64,000 nt of DNA from Subtercola boreus (GTDB taxonomy: Bacteria; Actinomycetota; Actinomycetes; Actinomycetales; Microbacteriaceae). How positions within the stretch are numbered: position 1 is the stretch's first letter; each line of letters starts with the position of its first letter. Positions 54,261 through 64,000 of the stretch are shown in pieces. The stretch spans positions 186,001 to 250,000 of the forward strand of contig NZ_NBXA01000003.1 of NCBI RefSeq assembly GCF_003399625.1, written 5' to 3'. Under the pieces are notes generated by a model. That model was not told where the DNA came from and made no database searches. It saw only the letters and a list, made by a program, of their open reading frames with translations. Both the position numbers and the translations under genes were made by a program.

Positions 54261-54602
54261 CTGCCGACACGATCCAACAAGCAGAGCTCGGCCTCAATGC
54301 CCGTGGGGGACAAATAGTGCTGCAGCCAAGAGGCCAATCATCGCCGCGATTCCCACATATGGGCCAACCGTTTGGGTGAGTGGTGTGCCTCAGAAACTTC
54401 AGGTTTCCGAAACAGCACAAGTCGGCAGGCAACTCGCCGGCCCTGACGCGTCGATCAGGGTGACAGGAATGGTCATATCAGGCGGGGGAGTGCTGACGAG
54501 CCGGTCAGTCCATTCGGCAAGCCTGGCTTGACGTGTGATGCGGCAATCCTCTACCCTGAGCGACATAGGACATCTGATGTCATCTGTTCAAAGGAGCTTG
54601 CA
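54261..54602. other. 342-bp gap with sialidase promoter; possible transporter fragment
   Basis: The right part holds the promoter TTGACG (54528-54533), 18-nt spacer, TACCCT (54552-54557), and the operator at 54569-54581. In the left part a minus-strand frame ending at 54294 reads TPLTQTVGPYVGIAAMIGLLAAALF, resembling the end of a transport protein; it is preceded by stops and is probably a relic. Confidence 0.5.
54569..54581. promoter_or_regulatory. GntR operator A upstream of sialidase gene
   Basis: GACATCTGATGTC, a 13-bp palindrome about 12 bp after the -10 element, i.e. at or just past the expected transcription start. It is identical in core to site C upstream of the transporter. Confidence 0.75.
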
Positions 54603-56222
54603 ATGTCGCATCGCCGCTGGTTGTCACCAATCGTTGCAATCGCTGTCGCCGTAGGCCTTGTCGCCACTGGCGCCATTGCTGCACAGGCGACCCCGACCGA
54701 TCCGCCAGGCACCTTCGCTCAGCAGAACCTCGGCTCGACGCTTGCCGGGAATTTCGCCGCCTATCGAATTCCAGCGCTCGCCTATCTGGGCAACAACATT
54801 GTCGTGGCGGCTTGAGACGGGCGGCCCACCAGTGCGGCCGATTCGCCGAATCCGAACTCGATCGTGATGCGGCGCAGCACAGATAATGGTGCGACGTGGG
54901 CCGCGCAGACCATCGTTCGCGCCGGCAACCCTGACACAGCCGGTAATGGCGCCGCCAAGATCGGCTACAGCGATCCGAGCTTTGTCTACGACGCGGTGGC
55001 CGCGAAGCTCTTCGTGTTCTCGGTCTACTCGAAGGGCCAGGGCTTCGCAGGAAGCGCGTACGGAAATGACGACGCGAACCGCAGCATCATCAGCGCGCAG
55101 GTGTCAGAGTCGACCGACCTAGGGCTGACGTGGGGAGCCCCACAACTAATCACGACCATCGTGAAACCCGGAACCAGTGGAAGCAGCCCTCAACCGGGCG
55201 CCGTCAAAGGAATGTTCGCCTCGTCGGGAGAGGGCATCCAGCTGAAGTATGGAGCGTATGCAGGCCGACTCGTGCAACAGTTTGCCGGAACGGTGCTGCA
55301 GGCGGATGGCTCCACGACCGTGCAGGCGTATTCGGTGTATTCCGACGACCATGGCGCGACCTGGAGACGCGGTGCCTTCGTCGGCACGGGAATGGATGAG
55401 AACAAGGTCGTCGAGCTATCGAACGGGTCGCTGCTGCTGAATTCGCGGGCCAGTACGGGCGGCAGTCGCAAGGTCGCGACTTCGACTGACGGCGGTCAGA
55501 CCTGGGGTGCGGTGACCACCGACACCGATCTGCCCGATCCGGGCAACAACGCGTCGATCACGCGGTTGTTCCCCGACGCGGCGCTTGGTTCTGCGGACGC
55601 GGCCAAGCTGCTGTTCACGAATGCTGACAGCACGAGCTCCCGTCAGAACGTGTCAGCTCGTGTGTCCTGTGACAATGGTGCGACATGGTCGTCGGTGCGT
55701 CCGATCGCTTCCGGGTTCTCGGCGTATTCGACGGCGACCAGGCTGGGCAACGGGCAGCTCGGGGTTCTCTACGAGTCCAGCTACACCTCGGGCATCCAGT
55801 TCGCCCGCTTCAGCGACACCTGGCTCGACTACAGCTGCCCATCGGCTGCGACGACCACAACGTCGATCGATGGAGTGCACATCACGGGTTCCCGAAACGA
55901 TGCAGGTCGGAACGTCACCACCCAGCCCTACACGGCCGGCGAACTGGTTCCCTACTCTTTCGCGGTGACCAACACCTTCTCGACAACCGTCACCGTCGCA
56001 CCGACCTCGGGCAATGTCTCGCCCCTTGTCCCCCCGGGCGCGGGCAATTGCCGGTACACCAATCTTGCTCCCGGCGCCGGGTACACGTGCTCTACGCCGA
56101 AGCACACGGTCACGGCCGCCGAGGTCGCGCAGGGCTACTTCGTGCCCGATTCGACCTGGACGGTCACCAGCGCCTCGACCTCGACCGCCCGCGTGATCGG
56201 CGCCCGTGTGGCTCTGAAATAG
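54603..56222 (+). pseudogene. nanH: Secreted sialidase gene interrupted by in-frame TGA
   Basis: A 540-codon frame broken only by TGA at 54813-54815 (codon 71). AAGGAG precedes ATG 54603, and a signal peptide ends near AAQATPTDP. The catalytic region starts YRIPALAYLGNN. The interruption falls where sialidases have Trp in the AAWDGRPT motif, just before the acid/base Asp. After it the frame is intact: five Asp-box motifs (TDNGATW, TDLGLTW, DDHGATW, TDGGQTW, CDNGATW), Arg-triad regions (SLLLNSRAS, STATRLGNGQ) and a C-terminal beta domain. TGG to TGA is a single change. It may be a true nonsense mutation, a read-through site or an assembly error. Confidence 0.85.
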
Positions 56223-56270
56223 GTTCTCGTGTCGCTGTCAATTTTTTCGACCTGTATATAAGGAGTCGTT

Positions 56271-57044
56271 GTGTCTGAAGTCGTGATTGTCGCAAACGCG
56301 GAGGAGGCTGGTGTTCTGGCCGCTGGCATCATCGGTCGACTGGTGCAGGATTATCCTGCCGCCGTGCTGGGTGTGGCGACCGGTTCCACCCCGCTTCCGC
56401 TCTACCGGGCGTTGGCGGCTCTCGGGCTCGACTTCTCAGGGGTTACCGCGTTCGCTCTCGACGAGTATGTCGGGTTGCCGACCGGGCACCCCGAAAGCTA
56501 CCGGCAGGTCATCGAGCGGGAGGTGGTCGCGCCGCTCGGGCTCGATCCTTCGCGGGTTCATGTGCCGAACGGTAACCCGGACGAACTGGCGCATGCCGGC
56601 GCCGACTACGAGGCTGCGATCGCTTCAGCTGGCGGCGTCGATGTGCAGGTGCTCGGCATTGGCACCGATGGTCACATCGGGTTCAACGAGCCGGGGTCAT
56701 CGCTCGCTTCACCGACGCGCGTCAAAACGCTGACACCCGAAACGCGGGCCGACAACGCGCGGTTCTTTGACTCGATCGATGACGTGCCAAAGCATTGCGT
56801 CACACAGGGGATCGGCACCATCCTCCGTGCACGGCACCTTGTTCTGCTGGCATTCGGTGAGGCCAAAGCCACTGCGCTTGCTGCGGCAGTCGAGGGGCCG
56901 GTGACCGCGTCTGTTCCGGCCTCCGCCATCCAGCTGCATCCGCGCGTGACGGTAATCGTCGACGCTGCGGCCGCGGCGCAGCTCGAACGTGCCGACTACT
57001 ACCGGTACGTCTACGCGAACCGTCCAGCCTGGCAGCAGCTCTGA
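56271..57044 (+). CDS. nagB: Glucosamine-6-phosphate deaminase
   Basis: Converts glucosamine-6-phosphate to fructose-6-phosphate and ammonia. The 257-residue protein has GVATGSTPLPLY at the phosphate site, the catalytic Asp in FALDEYVG, and the ring-opening His in GIGTDGHIGFNEPG. GTG start 5 nt after AAGGAG. It follows the sialidase by 48 nt, so both are probably one transcript from operator A; it is the terminal step of N-acetylneuraminate catabolism. nanA, nanE, nanK and nagA are not in the window. Confidence 0.95.
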   Translation: MSEVVIVANAEEAGVLAAGIIGRLVQDYPAAVLGVATGSTPLPLYRALAALGLDFSGVTAFALDEYVGLPTGHPESYRQVIEREVVAPLGLDPSRVHVPNGNPDELAHAGADYEAAIASAGGVDVQVLGIGTDGHIGFNEPGSSLASPTRVKTLTPETRADNARFFDSIDDVPKHCVTQGIGTILRARHLVLLAFGEAKATALAAAVEGPVTASVPASAIQLHPRVTVIVDAAAAAQLERADYYRYVYANRPAWQQL

Positions 57045-57066
57045 CGAAGCGTCGTTACTCAGGCGC

Positions 57067-58062
57067 TCAGGATGGGCTCCCGGACCGGGTTTGAGCGGTG
57101 AGGGTGGTGAGCGCGCCGAGCGTTGCAAGGGTGGGCTGTACGCGCTGTCCGATCGACGTCATCTCCGGTGCCGCACCCACCTTCACTCCGGCGTACATCA
57201 GCGGCCCTGCCGTGGCCAACAGTGCACCCATCGCCTCGGTCGTGAGCAGTGACGTCGGCTCGGCACCAGTGTTCTCCGGGATCCCCGGGCAGGAGAGTTC
57301 TGGAGCGCAGGGCAGGTGCGCGTCCAGCCAGGCTACGCCGTAACCGGTCGCTTCAGGCGAAACCCCCGAGAACATGAGCGCGGTACGTGCGCCCGCTTCG
57401 CGGAGAAGTACCGCGTGCCGGGACGCCTCCAAGGGATCGTGGGTCTCGATGACCGATCGCGCCCAGTTGAGGGTGTGGCCGAGGCGAGTGCCGCTCGCCT
57501 CGGCATCCTGGACCGCGGCGATCTCCTCCTTCAGTGTGAGAAAACCCTTCTGGGCAGCCCACGCAGCCTCCGGCAGGAAGGCGTCGCAGTGCTCCACCAT
57601 GAGGGCGGCTCCCCGCCAGTCGAGCGCCTGGAGTTCGGCCAGCGATGCGGTGAAGGCGCCGACTGACGACGCGGCGACGGTTCGGTTCGGTGCTGACTGC
57701 AGTTGGATCGCTTGCACGGAGCCTTCGCCGAGAAGATCAGTGAGTGCCGTGACCTCGGTATGCACCGTTCGCATGTCGGTGAGCGCACGCCGACGACCAG
57801 CCGGGTCGTTCGACGCGAGACCGTAGAGCGGATCGGTGGGGAGGATGCGTCCGGTTCCGGGAATGCAGGTCACAACGTTTCGCCAGGCAGGGTCGAGCAG
57901 ATGGGCGAGCCGTGCCATGCCCCCCGCATGAAGCGTTGAGGCGAATGGCAACTCCAGCCCGGTGGTGCCCGGCGTCTGGCGGAGCCTTCGGTACCACTCT
58001 TGCTCGAGATCTGGTCTCGAGGCGAGGTCAGGCGGTGCAGCCGCGTAGGCGCCGACGATCAT
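57067..58062 (-). CDS. DUF4862-family protein
   Basis: 331 residues, cytoplasmic, no signal. I place it in DUF4862, a family with TIM-barrel-like alternation and no proven function. Visible conserved-looking segments are GLELPFAS near the N-terminus, LMVEHCDAF, LTLKEEIAAV, LNWARSVIET and FSGVSPEATGYG. The acid/His pattern (EHCD) could be a metal or catalytic site similar to xylose-isomerase-like sugar epimerases. Last gene of the coupled tatA-gfo2-gfo1 operon (ATGA overlap) and convergent with nagB. Confidence 0.72.
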   Translation of the reverse strand: MIVGAYAAAPPDLASRPDLEQEWYRRLRQTPGTTGLELPFASTLHAGGMARLAHLLDPAWRNVVTCIPGTGRILPTDPLYGLASNDPAGRRRALTDMRTVHTEVTALTDLLGEGSVQAIQLQSAPNRTVAASSVGAFTASLAELQALDWRGAALMVEHCDAFLPEAAWAAQKGFLTLKEEIAAVQDAEASGTRLGHTLNWARSVIETHDPLEASRHAVLLREAGARTALMFSGVSPEATGYGVAWLDAHLPCAPELSCPGIPENTGAEPTSLLTTEAMGALLATAGPLMYAGVKVGAAPEMTSIGQRVQPTLATLGALTTLTAQTRSGSPS

Positions 58063-59108
58063 CGCGGCACCGTGACGGCGCCCGAGGCGATCGCCCGGTA
58101 AGCGGCGTCGATCACCGAGATGGAGGCGCGGGCATCCGCAATACCGTAGTCCGGCGTTCGCCCCGCAACGAGTGCGTCTACGAGGTCTGTGAAGAACCCC
58201 GCCAGCGCGGCACCGGATCCGACTCCTCCCACGGCGTGGGAAGCGACAATCGGCTCGCGGCCATAACGCGTGACGGCTGGCCGGTCATCGTCGATACTCG
58301 CGTGCCCGTGCGATCCGAGCAGCCGGATGCTTGTGCTCGTCGGCCCGAGCCCGGGAGCGAAGGGAACGCGCCCGACCGTCACGGTCGCCGTCACTCCGTG
58401 TTCGAGCCCGAGCGAGACGACCGCCGTGTCTTCGACGCCGAAGCGTGCGTGGCCATTGTCGAACAGTGCACCGGCCATCGCGTAGACGCTGGTCGTCTCG
58501 ATGCCGGTCAGGTACCGGATGCTGTCGACGCAGTAACCCAGAAAGTTCAGCAGCTCGCCGCCGCCGCTGAGAGCGGGATCGATCACCAGCTCAGGGCGTT
58601 CGACTGACGTGGTGAAGTGGGCGCCGCTTGCGAGAAACTCGACGTCGATGTGGCGCGGCAGGCCGAGGTGCCCGGCATCGACCCAGGCGCGGGCCCGGCG
58701 AAGCCCTGGGGCGTGGGTGCGGTTGATGACGGCACAGACCCGTCCGGTGCGGCGGGCGGCGGCGGCGATCGCGTCCGCGTCGGCGAGGGTGGTCGCAACG
58801 GGTTTGTCTACGAGGACGTCGATGCCGTTTTCGAAGGCTTCGAGGGCCAGCTGGGCGTGCCGGGTCGGTTCGCTGCAGACTACGACAAGGTCAACGGCCT
58901 GAGCATTGAGGGCGTGTGCGATATCGCCGAGCCACGGTACGCCCGCCTCCGCTGCAGTCCGGCGGCTGTCGGCGATCATCCAGTCGGGGCAGTCGTCATG
59001 CTCAGCCACCCCAACGATCTTGACCCGGGGGTCACGGCCGAGCAGCTGGAGGTAGGGCAGCGCATGCCGGACGCCAGACGCAAAGCTCACTCTGAGCGGA
59101 GCGGTCAT
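58059..59108 (-). CDS. Gfo/Idh/MocA-family oxidoreductase 1
   Basis: 349 residues. N-terminal Rossmann fold (FASGVRHALPYLQLLG; VVVCSEPTRHAQLAL) with catalytic-region Lys in VLVDKPVAT, then the C-terminal sheet domain with GGGELLNFLGYCVDSIRYLTG. The family oxidises or isomerises sugars using NAD(P). The ATG overlaps the gfo2 stop and its stop overlaps DUF4862. The adjacent sialidase and nagB suggest an aminosugar or sialoside derivative substrate. Confidence 0.88.
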   Translation of the reverse strand: MTAPLRVSFASGVRHALPYLQLLGRDPRVKIVGVAEHDDCPDWMIADSRRTAAEAGVPWLGDIAHALNAQAVDLVVVCSEPTRHAQLALEAFENGIDVLVDKPVATTLADADAIAAAARRTGRVCAVINRTHAPGLRRARAWVDAGHLGLPRHIDVEFLASGAHFTTSVERPELVIDPALSGGGELLNFLGYCVDSIRYLTGIETTSVYAMAGALFDNGHARFGVEDTAVVSLGLEHGVTATVTVGRVPFAPGLGPTSTSIRLLGSHGHASIDDDRPAVTRYGREPIVASHAVGGVGSGAALAGFFTDLVDALVAGRTPDYGIADARASISVIDAAYRAIASGAVTVPR

Positions 59109-60130
59109 GCCGCGACTCCCGTTAATCGGGCTTTCGGTTGGTCATGCGAGATTCGAACGGGCTGGCCGGTCTCGAGGGAACGCTGCGCCGCAACCGCGGT
59201 CGCCAACGCGACACGCGCCTGCGTCGTCGTGACGATGAATGGTTCGAGGCCCTGCGCCGCCCGCACCCAGTGCCCGAGCTGCAGGGAGAGAGCGTTCTCG
59301 ATCGAGGGCGGGGCAACCGGATGCCCGGGCGAGGAAAGCCCCGGATCGCAGTCGGTGCTGTGCGCCAGCGTGCCTTCCGTGCCGACGAGTACGATGCGCC
59401 GAAGGAACTCGCCCGGTTGACGGAGCGCGTAACAGAGCTCCAGCGTCGCAAGTGCTCCGCTCTCGAATCGCACCTGCACCTGGAAGCTGTCGGGCATGGG
59501 CATCTCTGCCGCAAAAGTGGGGAAGTTCCGCGCGAATACCTCGACCGGCGTCGAGCCGGTCAGCCAGACGGCGAGATCGATGCTGTGCGTGCCGTTATGT
59601 ACCGGGTGCCCGCCCGACCGTGACACGTCGAGCTGCCAACCCCGCCAGCCGTTCGGCCAGACATGCCCGGTGTACCAGCTCACATGCAGAAGTTTCGGAT
59701 CACCGATCTCACCGCGTGCGAGGGCCTGCTGCAACTCCGTGATCACCGGCTGGAAGCGTACAGTCTGACCCACCATCAGGGTGACACCACGGCCTTCGGT
59801 CGCTTCCACCATCTCGTCGAAATCGCTGACAGTGAGGGCGGCGGGTTTGTCGACGTGAACGTGCTTACCCGCCTCGCCCGCGGCCACAGTCCACCGGTGG
59901 TGGTCTGGTGTCGCGTTCACGACGTCGACCGCGTCCACATCGTCCCGGTCAATGGCGGCGTGAATGTCGGTGGTGGCGGCAGCGCCGCCAGCCAGCGCCG
60001 CGAGGGCATCAGCCCTGCGAAGATCGGAGCCTGCTACATGCGTGACGGCCACGCCGGGGAGGCTTCGCAGTGCGAGTACATGCTCGCGGGCGAACGCACC
60101 GGTGCCGACGACCGCGACTCTAAACGTCAT
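59105..60130 (-). CDS. Gfo/Idh/MocA-family oxidoreductase 2
   Basis: 341 residues. Rossmann motif [17 protein letters not shown] at the start, [28 protein letters not shown] with Lys, and [20 protein letters not shown], which has the H-xxx-D active-site pattern of the family. ATG 60130 (MTFRVAVVG) begins inside tatA, overlapping it by 11 nt. NanOx/YjhC, which converts 2,7-anhydro-Neu5Ac to Neu5Ac, is a member of this superfamily; either oxidoreductase here could do that, by context only. Confidence 0.88.
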
Positions 60131-60293
60131 CGGTGGCGGCGGGGGTGCGAAGCTCTGGCTTGACCTCGTCTTTGAGGATACGAGCCGACTGGCCGAGGCT
60201 GCGCGCGAGTGCGGGAAGCTTCGTTGCTCCAAACAGAAGGAGCAGAACAGCAATGACGATGACGGCGTGCCAGCCGTTGAGATTTGCGAGCAT
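60120..60293 (-). CDS. tatA: TatA/E-family twin-arginine translocase subunit
   Basis: 57 residues: a short N-terminus, one membrane helix ([15 protein letters not shown]), hinge, then an amphipathic helix ([22 protein letters not shown]) and a short tail. This is the TatA hallmark including FGxxKLP. It heads the operon with two oxidoreductases rather than sitting with tatB/tatC. The transporter's binding protein has a Tat signal, so a dedicated export role is plausible. Operator B is upstream. Confidence 0.9.
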
Positions 60294-60338
60294 GTGGGAT
60301 CCGGTTTCTACTGGAGGTCCGCCCACCCAACCACATCA

Positions 60339-60351
60339 GACATCCTATGTC
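60339..60351. promoter_or_regulatory. GntR operator B upstream of tatA operon
   Basis: GACATCCTATGTC, which differs from sites A and C only at the two central bases. It lies 46 bp upstream of the tatA ATG and about 30 bp from the 3' end of the GntR gene. Confidence 0.7.
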
Positions 60352-60380
60352 CAGCCCGTACGTGGTATCGTCGCCAAAGC

Positions 60381-61121
60381 TCAGTGAGCCGTGGTCGCTT
60401 TCTCGAGAGCGCGGCGAAGGGGCTGGTAGTGGTCGATGACGGCCTTTTTAAAAGCCTCGAGGTCGCCGGTCTGTGCGGCGTCGAGCATGGCACCGTGGGC
60501 TTTCGCTGTCTCGTCCATGTCGGCCGCAGGCGGTAAGCCGAGGAGGGGGTATACGACAGTGTTGACCTCCCAGAATGCGGCCACGAGCTGTCCCACCAGA
60601 GCGTTGTCGAGATAACTCAGGAGGCGGGAGTGGAATGCGAGGTCTTCGTCGGGGAAGGACTCGCCGGCTGTGGACTTCTTGACCATTGTTGCCACCAATT
60701 CCCTGAGGGCGAGATCGTTCGACCCATTCAGGGCCGTGACAATCGCCGGCGCCATGGCCAGGTCGAGCGCCTCGCGAACTTCCACGACCTCACGGAGGGC
60801 TGCGAAATTGTTCTCAGGGCTGAGCACGCCCCGGAAGACCAGGCCCTCGACGAGAGGTGCCAGAGACAGGTTGCCGACATACGTGCCATATCCGTGGCGC
60901 ACCTCGACGATGTCCAGAGCTTGAAGGGTGCGGATAGCCTCGCGAACGCTTGACCGGCTCACGTCCAGCGCGGCACAGATCTCCGACTCCGTGGGCATCA
61001 GATCACCCGGGCGAAGCTCGTTCTTCAGGATGTAGTTCTTGATCTGGTCGGTGACCGTGTTGCGGCGGCGGCCGGGTTCGATGATGAACGCTTCGCGTGG
61101 AGGCGTTGTAGTGGATTCCAT
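60381..61121 (-). CDS. FadR/NanR-like GntR transcriptional regulator
   Basis: 246 residues. N-terminal winged HTH (RPGDLMPTESEICAALDVSRSSVREAIRTLQALDIVEVRHGYGTYV) then an FCD ligand domain with the metal-binding His-type residues in AFHSRLL, AHGAMLDA and DHYQPL. By neighbourhood it is a NanR-like repressor responding to a sialic-acid catabolite. Divergent from the transporter with operator C in the gap, so autoregulation is likely. Confidence 0.87.
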   Translation of the reverse strand: MESTTTPPREAFIIEPGRRRNTVTDQIKNYILKNELRPGDLMPTESEICAALDVSRSSVREAIRTLQALDIVEVRHGYGTYVGNLSLAPLVEGLVFRGVLSPENNFAALREVVEVREALDLAMAPAIVTALNGSNDLALRELVATMVKKSTAGESFPDEDLAFHSRLLSYLDNALVGQLVAAFWEVNTVVYPLLGLPPAADMDETAKAHGAMLDAAQTGDLEAFKKAVIDHYQPLRRALEKATTAH

Positions 61122-61173
61122 CTCGAGCTTGACCTTTCGCGTGGTGAGGTATTAGTTTCAGTGTACTGACTTA

Positions 61174-61188
61174 GGACATCTGATGTCC
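61174..61188. promoter_or_regulatory. GntR operator C between gntR and transporter genes
   Basis: GGACATCTGATGTCC, a 15-bp palindrome with central T, identical in core to operator A. It sits in the 90-bp divergent gap, downstream of a candidate promoter (TTGACC at 61129-61134). Confidence 0.8.
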
Positions 61189-61211
61189 GATATTCCCTCG
61201 AAAGGCAGAAC

Positions 61212-62822
61212 ATGCTCAAAGACGTGCTCCACCTGCAGACCAGCCGCCGCGCCTTCATCGGCTCCGTCGGCGCCATGGGTATTGTCGCCGCACTGGCGGC
61301 CTGCTCCGGCCCCAGCTCGACGACCGGAGCCAACGGTGCCGCCGGCGGGTCCGCCGGTCCGGTCAAGACCGACGGGCTCATCACCGCCGGAATGTCCTAC
61401 CCGCTCTCGACCGGCTTCGACCCCATGACCACCTCGGCCGCGCTGACCGTCGCAGGCAACTGGCACGTGCTGGAGGGCCTCGTCGACCTCGACCCGGTCA
61501 CCCGCAAGCCCTACGCTGCCCTTGCCACGTCCCTTCCCACGCAGGTCGACGACACGACCTGGCAGGCGACGCTCCGCAGTGGGGCGACGTTCCACGACGG
61601 CAGTCCGGTGACGATCGACGATGTCGTGTTCTCGTTCACCCGCGTGCTCGATCCGGCGAACAATTCCCTGTATCTCGGCTTCCTGCCGTTCGTCGATTCA
61701 GTGACCGCTGTCGACGCCTCGACCGTGCAGTTCAAGCTGAAGTACGCCTTCAGTCTGTTCCCGAGCCGCATCTCGGTCGTCAAGGTCGTGCCAAAGGCCT
61801 TGGTGACGGCCGACCAGGCCGCTTACGACAGCCTACCCGTGGGCTCAGGGCCGTACAAGTATGTTTCGGCTACCAAAGACGACAAGATCGTGTTCGAGCG
61901 TTTCGATGCCTACAACGGCCCGCGGCCAGCGCTTGCCGCCGGCATGACCTGGAACCTGCTCTCGGATGCGTCGGCCCGGGTCACCGCCGCGCAGTCGGGC
62001 CGGGTCGAGGCGATCGAGGACGTGCCCTACCTAGACGCCGACGGACTCGCCAAGACGCTGACCGTCGACTCAGTGCAATCGTTCGGATTGCTGTTCATGA
62101 TGTTCAACTGCTCAGTGGCCCCCTTCGACGACAAGCGTGTTCGCCAGGCCTTCTTCTACGCCATCGACATGGACAAGGTGATCAGCACAGCCCTGCTCGG
62201 CAACGCGACGGCCGCGACGAGCTTCGTACCGAAAGATCATCCCTCCTATGTCGAGGCGAAGACGGTCTACAGCCACGACCCGGCCAAAGCGAAGCAACTG
62301 CTCGCCGACGCCGGTGTCTCCAACCTCGCGGTGACGCTCCTGACCACCGATACGGCGTGGGTGAAAGACGTCGCACCGCTAATCAAGGAGAGTCTCGACT
62401 CGGTGGGCATCGCCACGACACTCGACATCGGCCAGTCGGGGGGTCAGTACAAGAAGGTTGACGGCGGAGAGCTGCAGGTCATGGTCGCGCCCGGTGACCC
62501 GTCAGTATTCGGTCCCGACGCCGATCTGCTGCTGCGCTGGTGGTTCGCCGGTTCGGTCTGGCCGGTCAGTCGCTACCGTTGGGCGGGCACTCCGGAATTC
62601 GCCGAGGTGACATCGTTGCTCAACCAGGCTGCGTCAGCGTCCGACGAAGCCGCCCAGAAGGCGACGTGGGGCCAGATCTACGACATCATCTCTGAGAACG
62701 TCCCTCTCTATCCCCTCTTCCACCGCAAGCTGCCCACGGCGTACGACGGCGCGAAGGTCCCCGGTTTCAAGCCCCTGTCGATCACCGGCCTGTCGTTCCT
62801 GGACGTGGGTTCGACCGTATGA
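61212..62822 (+). CDS. Dpp/Opp-type ABC substrate-binding lipoprotein (SBP family 5)
   Basis: 536 residues. The N-terminus SRRAFIGSVGAMGIVAALAAC combines twin-arginine and lipobox features, so Tat export followed by lipidation is expected. The family-5 fold is recognisable: VLEGLVDLDPVTRKPYAALA, WQATLRSGATFHDGSPVTIDDVVFSFTRVLDP, GSGPYKYV, MFNCSVAPFDDKRVRQAFFYAID. Although this family mostly binds peptides, corynebacterial sialic acid importers are of this class. Two permeases follow directly. Confidence 0.88.
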   Translation: MLKDVLHLQTSRRAFIGSVGAMGIVAALAACSGPSSTTGANGAAGGSAGPVKTDGLITAGMSYPLSTGFDPMTTSAALTVAGNWHVLEGLVDLDPVTRKPYAALATSLPTQVDDTTWQATLRSGATFHDGSPVTIDDVVFSFTRVLDPANNSLYLGFLPFVDSVTAVDASTVQFKLKYAFSLFPSRISVVKVVPKALVTADQAAYDSLPVGSGPYKYVSATKDDKIVFERFDAYNGPRPALAAGMTWNLLSDASARVTAAQSGRVEAIEDVPYLDADGLAKTLTVDSVQSFGLLFMMFNCSVAPFDDKRVRQAFFYAIDMDKVISTALLGNATAATSFVPKDHPSYVEAKTVYSHDPAKAKQLLADAGVSNLAVTLLTTDTAWVKDVAPLIKESLDSVGIATTLDIGQSGGQYKKVDGGELQVMVAPGDPSVFGPDADLLLRWWFAGSVWPVSRYRWAGTPEFAEVTSLLNQAASASDEAAQKATWGQIYDIISENVPLYPLFHRKLPTAYDGAKVPGFKPLSITGLSFLDVGSTV

Positions 62823-63772
62823 TCGCACTGCTGAGGCTGGCGGGGCGGCGGCTCATCTGGCTGCCGTTCATGGTGCTCGGTATCACGCTGCTCGTGTTCT
62901 TCGTGATGCAGTTCACGCCGACGGATGCCGCCACCAATGCGCTCGGTGAGAGCGCCACGGAGGCGGCCAAGCAGGCCTACCGTGTCTCGCATGGGCTGAC
63001 CGATCCGTTCTTCGTGCAGTACTTCCGTTTTCTCGGCGGGCTCTTCACCGGCAACCTCGGCGACACGGTCCCTCCCGCCCAGCCGGTCACCTCGCTCATC
63101 TCAACCGCGTTCCCGCTCACCCTGCAGCTCACCTTCCTCGGGCTGCTGATCGCGGTCGTGCTCTCGCTCGTGCTCGGAGTACTGGCTGCGCTCTACCGCG
63201 ACCGGTGGCCCGACCAGGTCATCCGGGTGGTGTCGATCGCCGGCATCGCCACGCCGTCGTTCTGGCTGGCCATCCTGCTCATCAAGTCATTCGCTCTCGA
63301 CCTGCAGATATTCCCGAGCGGTGGCTACGTCAACCCAGGCGACTCGTTCACCGGCTGGCTGCAGTCGCTCTGGCTTCCCGCACTCGCCCTGGGAATTCCC
63401 GTAGCGGCCTCGCTCACCAGAGTTGTGCGAACGTCGATGGTCGAAGAACTCGACCGGGACTACGTGCGCACGGCCATCGGATCTGGTCTGCCGATGAGGG
63501 TAGTCGTGGGCCGCAACGTGCTCCGCAACGCCCTCATCACACCCGTCACCGTTCTTGGGCTTCGGGTGGGCTACCTGCTGGGCGGCGCGGTGGTGATCGA
63601 GGTCATCTTCGACCTCCCTGGTATGGGAAAGCTCATTCTGAACGGAGTGACCGCCGGTGACACGAACCTGGTGCAAGGCGTGACGCTGATCATCGCGCTC
63701 ACCTTCGTGATCGTCAACATCGTCGTCGACATGCTCTACCTGCTCATCAACCCACGAATCAGAACGGTCTGA
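62819..63772 (+). CDS. DppB/OppB-type ABC permease
   Basis: 317 residues, six membrane helices. Typical start (LIWLPFMVLGITLLVFFVMQFTP), periplasmic loop, and EAA-like motif region DYVRTAIGSGLPMRVVVGRNVLRNALIT. The C-terminus has VIEVIFDLPGMGKLILNGV. ATGA overlap with the binding protein gene. Confidence 0.93.
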   Translation: MIALLRLAGRRLIWLPFMVLGITLLVFFVMQFTPTDAATNALGESATEAAKQAYRVSHGLTDPFFVQYFRFLGGLFTGNLGDTVPPAQPVTSLISTAFPLTLQLTFLGLLIAVVLSLVLGVLAALYRDRWPDQVIRVVSIAGIATPSFWLAILLIKSFALDLQIFPSGGYVNPGDSFTGWLQSLWLPALALGIPVAASLTRVVRTSMVEELDRDYVRTAIGSGLPMRVVVGRNVLRNALITPVTVLGLRVGYLLGGAVVIEVIFDLPGMGKLILNGVTAGDTNLVQGVTLIIALTFVIVNIVVDMLYLLINPRIRTV

Positions 63773-63776
63773 GACC

Positions 63777-64000
63777 ATGCGCCGTACGCTCACCGACCGC
63801 CTCAGCGCACCCGGCCTGCGCCTGAAAGCGCTGCCAATCGGATCGAAGATCGCCCTCGTCTTCTTCGCACTCATCGTGCTGGCCGCCGTCTTCGCCCCCC
63901 TCGTGGCACTGCACGACCCACTCGAGTCCGGCATCCCCGCACAACCGCCATCGGCCGATCACTGGTTCGGCACCGATCGCACCGGCCGGGACATCTACGC
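63777..64000 (+). CDS. DppC/OppC-type ABC permease (5' part; cut by window end)
   Basis: About 74 residues visible. N-terminal cytoplasmic stretch, first membrane helix (ALVFFALIVLAAVFAPLVAL) and the DppC signature DHWFGTDRTGRDIY before the edge. ATG 63777 is 5 nt after the DppB stop. The ATPase and probably nanA/E/K would follow to the right. Confidence 0.92.
   Translation, partial: MRRTLTDRLSAPGLRLKALPIGSKIALVFFALIVLAAVFAPLVALHDPLESGIPAQPPSADHWFGTDRTGRDIY

Follow-up and report, generated by a model that had tools for sequence, protein, structure and literature searches.

Several sialate loci with a comparable content have been described. In the available part of Li and Huang 2022 (PMC8754123), the actinobacterial nan cluster with ST3 comprises consecutive nanA, nanK and nanE genes, an ATP-binding cassette (ABC) transporter with an SBP_bac_5 solute-binding protein, a FadR/GntR regulator, nagB and a sialidase, while the sialate locus cg2929-cg2940 of Corynebacterium glutamicum includes the GntR regulator cg2936, according to the accessible text of PMC4974736. 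Here we compare with these systems a locus at the right-hand end of a 64,000-nucleotide stretch of Subtercola boreus DNA, which we call the window (C3:186001-250000 of a 4.1-Mb genome). The locus is the standard actinobacterial nan layout plus additions, since nanA-, nanK- and nanE-like genes lie just outside the window: its core is ordinary, and the additions, namely a tandem pair of Gfo/Idh/MocA genes (gfoA and gfoB), a DUF4862 gene and a tatA gene, are real, conserved and unexplained. A first-pass annotation had called the locus non-standard, which holds for the added genes and fails for the core, as nanA/K/E-like genes adjoin it and a nagA homologue is found elsewhere in the genome.

The oxidoreductase pair is tied to nan genes in most of the loci in which we found it. 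Genes were called from open reading frames and by comparison with Pfam and NCBIfam profiles, and labels in L and G denote stretches and genomes of relatives. Searches for gfoB in 299 genomes of the family (E <=1e-30) and 396 of the order (E <=1e-40), the window's own genome being counted in both, found it in at least 6 and at least 7 genomes, respectively, with only part of the first-look candidates scored; a collection scan requiring one of two peptide patterns gave 24 loci. The total is 34 distinct gfoB loci, with G480 (the same as L116) and G613 (the same as L128) counted once each, and no plasmid record matched at E 1e-20. GfoA is encoded immediately before gfoB in 33 of the 34, the exception being L137, a contig of 3.9 kb without any gfoA match. 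Among the 26 loci with a gfoB match of at least 51%, 25 show a nanA-like match at 49% or more within the fetched stretch (window included, and Leifsonia aquatica by way of L167), both lines having been fixed after seeing the data; the remaining locus, from Arthrobacter sp. 35W (L129), carries a NanY-like gene and a transporter. In five loci (L120, L122-L125) a nanA-like gene directly follows gfoB. Within the genus, gfoB is present in four of seven genomes, own included, and the same four carry nanE at 72% or more; a nanE search of 12 genomes, five of which are not in the gfoB genome list, added a fifth genome, in which nanE is at 48% and gfoB does not reach the cut-off. In both Leifsonia aquatica and Curtobacterium pusillum gfoB is followed by an AXE1-family esterase gene, and a GDSL hydrolase gene is present in Rhodococcus locus L122. 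A modified sialic acid had been proposed as a possible substrate of the locus; the nanA linkage and the esterases of these two relatives lend modest support to such a role for the Gfo pair, the substrate itself being a matter of inference. Distant pairs (L131, L132, L136, L139) have FAA-hydrolase, RidA-like, short-chain dehydrogenase or DHDPS-family genes as neighbours, hinting at 2-keto-3-deoxy acid substrates there.

Both proteins have the Rossmann and C-terminal domains of their family (Pfam) and the [DE]KP lysine, and they differ from each other in their motifs. GfoA has an HxxxH motif that places a histidine at the position of the catalytic aspartate, and HNGxH is found in 28 of 29 aligned rows (26 of 27 distinct loci), the exception being the Chloroflexia row L136. 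GfoB has NxxxY in place of the catalytic motif and, with DKP kept, lacks GxGxx[GA], having [SG]xVRH at that place; both features hold in all 30 rows (28 distinct loci), and an alignment of 23 sequences has VRH, DKP, SGGGE, N188 and Y192 invariant. The AlphaFold2 model of GfoB (predicted local distance difference test, pLDDT, 88.8) has the family fold, with TM_0425 and aldose-aldose oxidoreductase as nearest structures. GfoB may be a partner subunit or a protein with a changed cofactor site. A third Gfo gene, about 27-37% identical to E. coli NanY, lies directly upstream of gfoA in L120, L122-L127, L129 and L165, and has HEIH, which is HxxH-like, in five of these loci (L120, L123, L125, L126, L129) out of eight, L165 being left aside.

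The features of the locus within the window are as follows.

54569-54581, no strand: perfect operator palindrome, GACATCTGATGTC, upstream of sialidase-nagB
54603-56222, plus strand: sialidase (BNR) frame with an in-frame TGA at 54813-54815; frames uninterrupted in relatives L101 and L102
56271-57044, plus strand: nagB, glucosamine-6-phosphate isomerase/deaminase family (PF01182)
57067-58062, minus strand: DUF4862 protein (PF16154, E 2.9e-78), a xylose-isomerase-like TIM barrel by predicted fold
58059-59108, minus strand: gfoB, Gfo/Idh/MocA protein without GxGxxG, DKP kept, with [SG]xVRH and NxxxY (Pfam, motif alignment, model)
59105-60130, minus strand: gfoA, Gfo/Idh/MocA oxidoreductase; nucleotide motif canonical, DKP and HxxxH present (Pfam, motifs)
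60120-60293, minus strand: tatA (PF02416, above cut-off), start put at the conserved MLANLNG, a GTG at 60326 being possible
60339-60351, no strand: operator palindrome, one mismatch, ahead of tatA-gfoA-gfoB-DUF4862
60381-61121, minus strand: gntR, FCD-type GntR regulator, NanR-like (PF00392 and PF07729)
61175-61187, no strand: perfect operator palindrome, between gntR and the transporter operon
61212-62822, plus strand: SBP_bac_5 solute-binding protein (PF00496, E 3.2e-78)
62819-63772, plus strand: dppB-like permease (PF00528)
63777-64000, plus strand: 5' part of a fused dppC-dppD, continuing beyond the window in L004

By reading frames and Pfam, every gene named in the first-pass annotation lies where it had been placed, including the overlapping minus-strand genes, with overlaps of 11 bases (tatA/gfoA), 4 bases (gfoA/gfoB) and 4 bases (gfoB/DUF4862). 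The gntR gene closely precedes tatA in the same orientation, so its promoter may drive the tatA unit as well. The right continuation is covered by the stretch L004 (C3:249000-256033), where a search for nanA, nanE and nanK had been advised: past the window edge come the rest of the fused dppC-dppD, dppF, and then all three nanA-, nanK- and nanE-like genes, 2.7-5.4 kb beyond the edge (L004 3.7-6.4 kb) and within 10 open reading frames. The nanE-like product scores 277 bits, above its model cut-off of 189, and the nanA-like gene owes its name to its position. Another contig of the genome carries a nagA homologue, with 40% identity to a Rhodococcus NagA-like protein that itself scores 195.7 against the nagA model cut-off of 225.65. 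With these genes the textbook sialate route is, judged from sequence, very probably complete in this organism. The solute-binding protein carries a twin-arginine-like signal, TSRRAFIGS, and a lipobox, AAC, both read by eye. As side observations, dppC and dppD are fused into one 675-residue protein (L004:778-2805), an integrase-type (rve) frame lies just past nanE at the contig end (L004:6623-7033), and the nanE match of Subtercola vilae (G480:C38:17120-17809, L111) has one TAG inside, maybe at the gene end.

A palindrome shared by all three promoters had been noted in the first-pass annotation and is borne out: GACATCnGATGTC is perfect at two of them and deviates by a single mismatch in the remaining one. 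The 64 kb hold three such sites at up to one mismatch, against a mean of 0.23 and a maximum of 1 in 60 dinucleotide shuffles, and the two perfect sites are the only places in the whole genome with the longer pattern GGACATCHGATGTC in exact form. In 25 gfoAB loci (24 nan loci and the NanY-only L129) we counted 24 sites with at most one mismatch, 13 loci having at least one, compared with 0-2 per shuffle (five shuffles) and a single site in a control set of 25 DUF4862 loci chosen for absence of nan. The sites in relatives stand, by eye on the gene map, in the gap between binding protein and gntR, before tatA or gfoA and before the sialidase; in Subtercola vilae one also precedes nagB. The recurrence of the operator at corresponding promoters makes a single regulon under one operator, as originally suggested, well supported at the level of sequence. 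The GntR regulator presumably binds at GACATCnGATGTC; its best NCBIfam model is NanR (PRK03837, E. coli NanR), but at 65 bits against a cut-off of 260. The E. coli NanR operator is a (GGTATA)n repeat, as given in the accessible part of PMC8012715; the site shared by the promoters here is GACATCnGATGTC.

The product of tatA, a gene of the twin-arginine translocation (Tat) system, has a TatA_B_E domain (Pfam 46.9 bits, cut-off 21) and falls just below the NCBIfam tatAE cut-off (49.7 vs 53.9); the genome has one other TatA-family match, which adjoins a tatC. In Leifsonia aquatica an operator with one mismatch separates tatA-tatC, on one strand, from a TatB-like gene, gfoA, gfoB and the AXE1-family esterase, on the other, the Tat genes (L117:7564-8991) facing away from it, and a second TatC is encoded elsewhere in that genome. 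The TatB-like gene has TatB-type families as best match, but at 56 vs 96 and 39 vs 56.5 bits, and no Pfam family was found for it. The binding proteins of the four loci with a linked TatA have SRRxF signals, which also occur in some binding proteins without one (Subtercola vilae, Curtobacterium). In Curtobacterium L166 the contig with the sialidase also carries, about 10 kb away, a TatC-TatA-TatB set; there is no operator within one mismatch, and the genome has two TatC genes.

DUF4862 was once thought of as part of the same pathway, and comparison of its neighbourhoods separates it from the Gfo pair: had both kinds of gene mostly stood away from nan genes, the sialate reading would have suffered, and this is the case for DUF4862, since of 60 loci fetched from the order (Micrococcales, a name that we infer) 18 have a nanA-like match at 49% or more in the vicinity and four more have one at 45%, and not for the pair, which mostly stands beside nanA (25/34). 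Matches were found in 61 other genomes, G334 not being fetched and a second DUF4862 contig of G024 being dropped. None of the 18 nan-linked loci has a gfoB match at E 1e-5, and the nan-linked rows do not form one clade (9 changes on the tree vs 19.0 in shuffles). We therefore rejected DUF4862 as a marker of sialate loci. Elsewhere its neighbours include KduI (10 loci), TRAP DctM (10), KduD (7) and sulfatase (4) clusters, for each of which one representative was family-checked, KduI being above its cut-off and KduD just below; TRAP and KduI genes are found at L036, L055, L056, L058, L062, L063, L065, L081, L084 and L094. This suggests a wider acid-sugar role for the family. GfoAB and DUF4862 occur together in at least 6 of the 34 gfoAB loci, many stretches ending at nanE: four genomes of the window's genus, the metagenome-assembled actinomycetote genome L118 and Leifsonia aquatica (L117 with L167). 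DUF4862 is a module separate from the pair. No solved relative by sequence was better than E 0.46. The DUF4862 model, built from three sequences, has a mean pLDDT of 70, and Foldseek places it among xylose-isomerase-like TIM barrels (best E 5e-7, TM about 0.5-0.7 for most barrel matches), including ketose 3-epimerases, YcjR (6wn6) and DgpB-C (7drd). PF16154 also has matches in the E. coli control genome, and a search of plasmids for DUF4862 gave three records, all below 60% identity. YihM was considered as the E. coli member and rejected, having PF01261 only and no significant similarity to the window protein.

As the most likely explanation we propose, with about even confidence, that the locus represents an actinobacterial sialate regulon of the common ST3 kind to which modules have been added, and in which the pair converts a variant sialate into a substrate of NanA. 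The sialidase would release sialic acid outside the cell, the lipoprotein and Dpp-type ABC transporter would take it up, and NanA, NanK and NanE, followed by NagA and NagB, would lead to fructose-6-phosphate, with the FCD-type GntR protein acting at GACATCnGATGTC promoters on a sialate signal. The genes with their order, the operator sites and the conservation are observed; binding by the regulator, the direction of its control, the substrate, the pairing of the subunits and the Tat role belong to the model. GfoA, whose nucleotide and catalytic motifs are intact, would probably act on a variant nonulosonate, not plain N-acetylneuraminic acid (Neu5Ac), and use bound nicotinamide adenine dinucleotide, NAD(H), to convert it by way of a transient keto form to a product that NanA can cleave, GfoB without its glycine motif probably being an obligate partner subunit. 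DUF4862 would be an independent isomerase- or epimerase-like add-on, and the additional TatA would help to export the twin-arginine binding protein while the regulon is on. The role of the pair on a variant sialate is deduced from its linkage to nanA-like genes and from its chemistry, helped by the AXE1-family esterase and GDSL hydrolase genes. More tentatively, a Gfo/Idh/MocA enzyme made of a catalytic subunit and a second subunit whose nucleotide site is rewired might be an actinobacterial route into an unrecognised sialate that NanOx does not handle, the same regulon in some species inducing its own Tat parts for the twin-arginine binding protein.

A number of results weigh against this proposal. 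Eight loci (L131-L137, L139; Streptomyces, Jiangella, Chloroflexia) with gfoB at 50% or less have no nanA-like match of at least 49%, three of them having one at 37-44%, and the chemistry of the pair is therefore not limited to sialate. None of the results shows a substrate, and loss of the glycine motif in GfoB is no proof of lost NAD binding. The nanA-like product scores best with the dapA model (154 vs a cut-off of 206 bits) and reaches 102 and 87 bits with the two nan models, below their cut-offs; the nanK-like product has 141 bits against a nanK cut-off of 283. Twelve of the 25 gfoAB loci lack an operator site at up to one mismatch, and the operator is also present in nan loci without gfoAB (L047, L088, L089), so it marks the regulon and not the Gfo pair. 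TatA is linked in only 4 of the 34 loci (window, G401, G666, Leifsonia aquatica), and in another 4/34 count a NanY-like gene means that an enzyme for anhydro-sialate is already there.

In another explanation, which we regard as rather unlikely, the additions act on a different sugar from the same food (for example galactose or N-acetylgalactosamine beneath sialic acid, or N-acetylmannosamine side products) and share only the regulator. Distant pairs that lack a good nanA and adjoin FAA-hydrolase, RidA-like, short-chain dehydrogenase or amidase genes would fit it, as would the KduI, KduD, TRAP and sulfatase genes near DUF4862. The direct succession of gfoB and a nanA-like gene in five loci speaks against it, and no other recurrent sugar pathway was noticed in the gene-called nan-linked loci, in which no systematic count was made.

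The pair might, alternatively, replace NanOx and open 2,7-anhydro-Neu5Ac or hydrate Neu5Ac2en via a 4-keto intermediate, which we consider unlikely; the NanOx/YjhC identity at which the first-pass annotation had hinted is not supported. In the window genome the search made gave gfoA itself as the best match and no orthologue of NanY, and GfoA shares with RgNanOx the histidine at the catalytic aspartate position (available text of PMC7535918). The catalytic motif of NanOx and YjhC given there is HxxH, which the HxxxH of GfoA is not. Identity to E. coli NanY is 29.9% over 197 residues for gfoA and 22.6% over 186 residues for gfoB, both under the level of about 45% over full length that we took for NanOx/NanY membership. 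A NanY-like gene apart from the pair lies nearby in 4 of the 34 loci (45% to E. coli NanY in G517; 98, 62 and 59% to the G517 protein in L128, L127 and L129), so the two are distinct. On identity, motif and this separate gene we rejected both gfoA and gfoB as NanOx. The piece of the sialidase downstream of its stop is closest to the solved chain 1eur (290 bits), which we take to be the hydrolytic Micromonospora enzyme NedA, and reaches 42 bits with the best chain named anhydrosialidase, 4x6k. Because of the low identity, the motif difference, the separate NanY-like genes and this distance of the sialidase from anhydrosialidases, the anhydro-sialate reading of the locus is weak. The methods of PMC8754123, in the part available, call NanOx at over 30% identity, a threshold close to the gfoA-NanY identity, and such calls may mix families.

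The sialidase frame itself, from 54603, meets an in-frame TGA after 70 codons and continues in the same frame to 56222, either by recent loss or by sequencing error, the other genes being open. Dpp-type transporters take peptide-sized ligands. NAD-dependent oxidation-elimination of intact sialosides inside the cell by the Gfo pair, supplied by such a transporter, would suit the broken frame and the likening of the YjhC reaction to family 4 glycosidases (PMC7315737, as far as available), and is nevertheless highly improbable, since two same-genus relatives, L101 and L102, keep the frame uninterrupted in the locus and no biochemical precedent was found in the literature searched.

The proposal of a sialate regulon with added modules would, if right, matter in several ways. 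An oxidoreductase pair that is distinct from NanOx and has a nanA-like gene beside it in 25 of the 26 closer loci points to a so far uncharacterised step of actinobacterial sialate use, suggesting that the locus may use an unusual form of sialic acid, and a sialate-controlled private Tat set would, if true, be an unusual export machine induced together with its cargo. The literature searched, which covered few subscription papers, gave no description of the Gfo pair (including the available portions of PMC7535918, PMC7315737, PMC4974736 and PMC8754123), no mention of DUF4862 and no paper on Subtercola and sialidase.

Among known systems, the canonical actinobacterial ST3 nan cluster is matched in nanA/K/E, SBP_bac_5 transporter, GntR/FadR-type regulator, nagB and sialidase, and differs in that gfoA-gfoB, DUF4862 and tatA were not found in the accessible text of PMC8754123. 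The cg2929-cg2940 locus, likened by description and not by sequence, shares sialate transport and use genes and a GntR regulator, as far as the available part of PMC4974736 goes. NanOx of Ruminococcus gnavus and NanY (YjhC) of Escherichia coli are likewise Gfo/Idh/MocA proteins in a sialate locus, GfoA having the histidine at the catalytic aspartate position, whereas the window pair is at most 30% identical to E. coli NanY, has HxxxH in GfoA and is a two-gene tandem with one partner lacking GxGxxG. In YcjS/YcjR and DgpA/DgpB-C, a Gfo oxidoreductase is paired with a xylose-isomerase-like TIM barrel on 3-keto sugars; the DUF4862 model falls among these barrels and its gene stands beside Gfo genes here, but the model is of moderate confidence, sequence identity is 9-15% in the barrel matches listed, and gfoAB and DUF4862 share 6 of 34 loci. 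The TatABC translocase, finally, is matched by a TatA above the Pfam cut-off and by TatC, TatA and TatB-like genes together in Leifsonia aquatica; the window tatA differs in being part of a sialate regulon, next to the gene of its likely cargo, the other TatA-family gene lying elsewhere in the genome.

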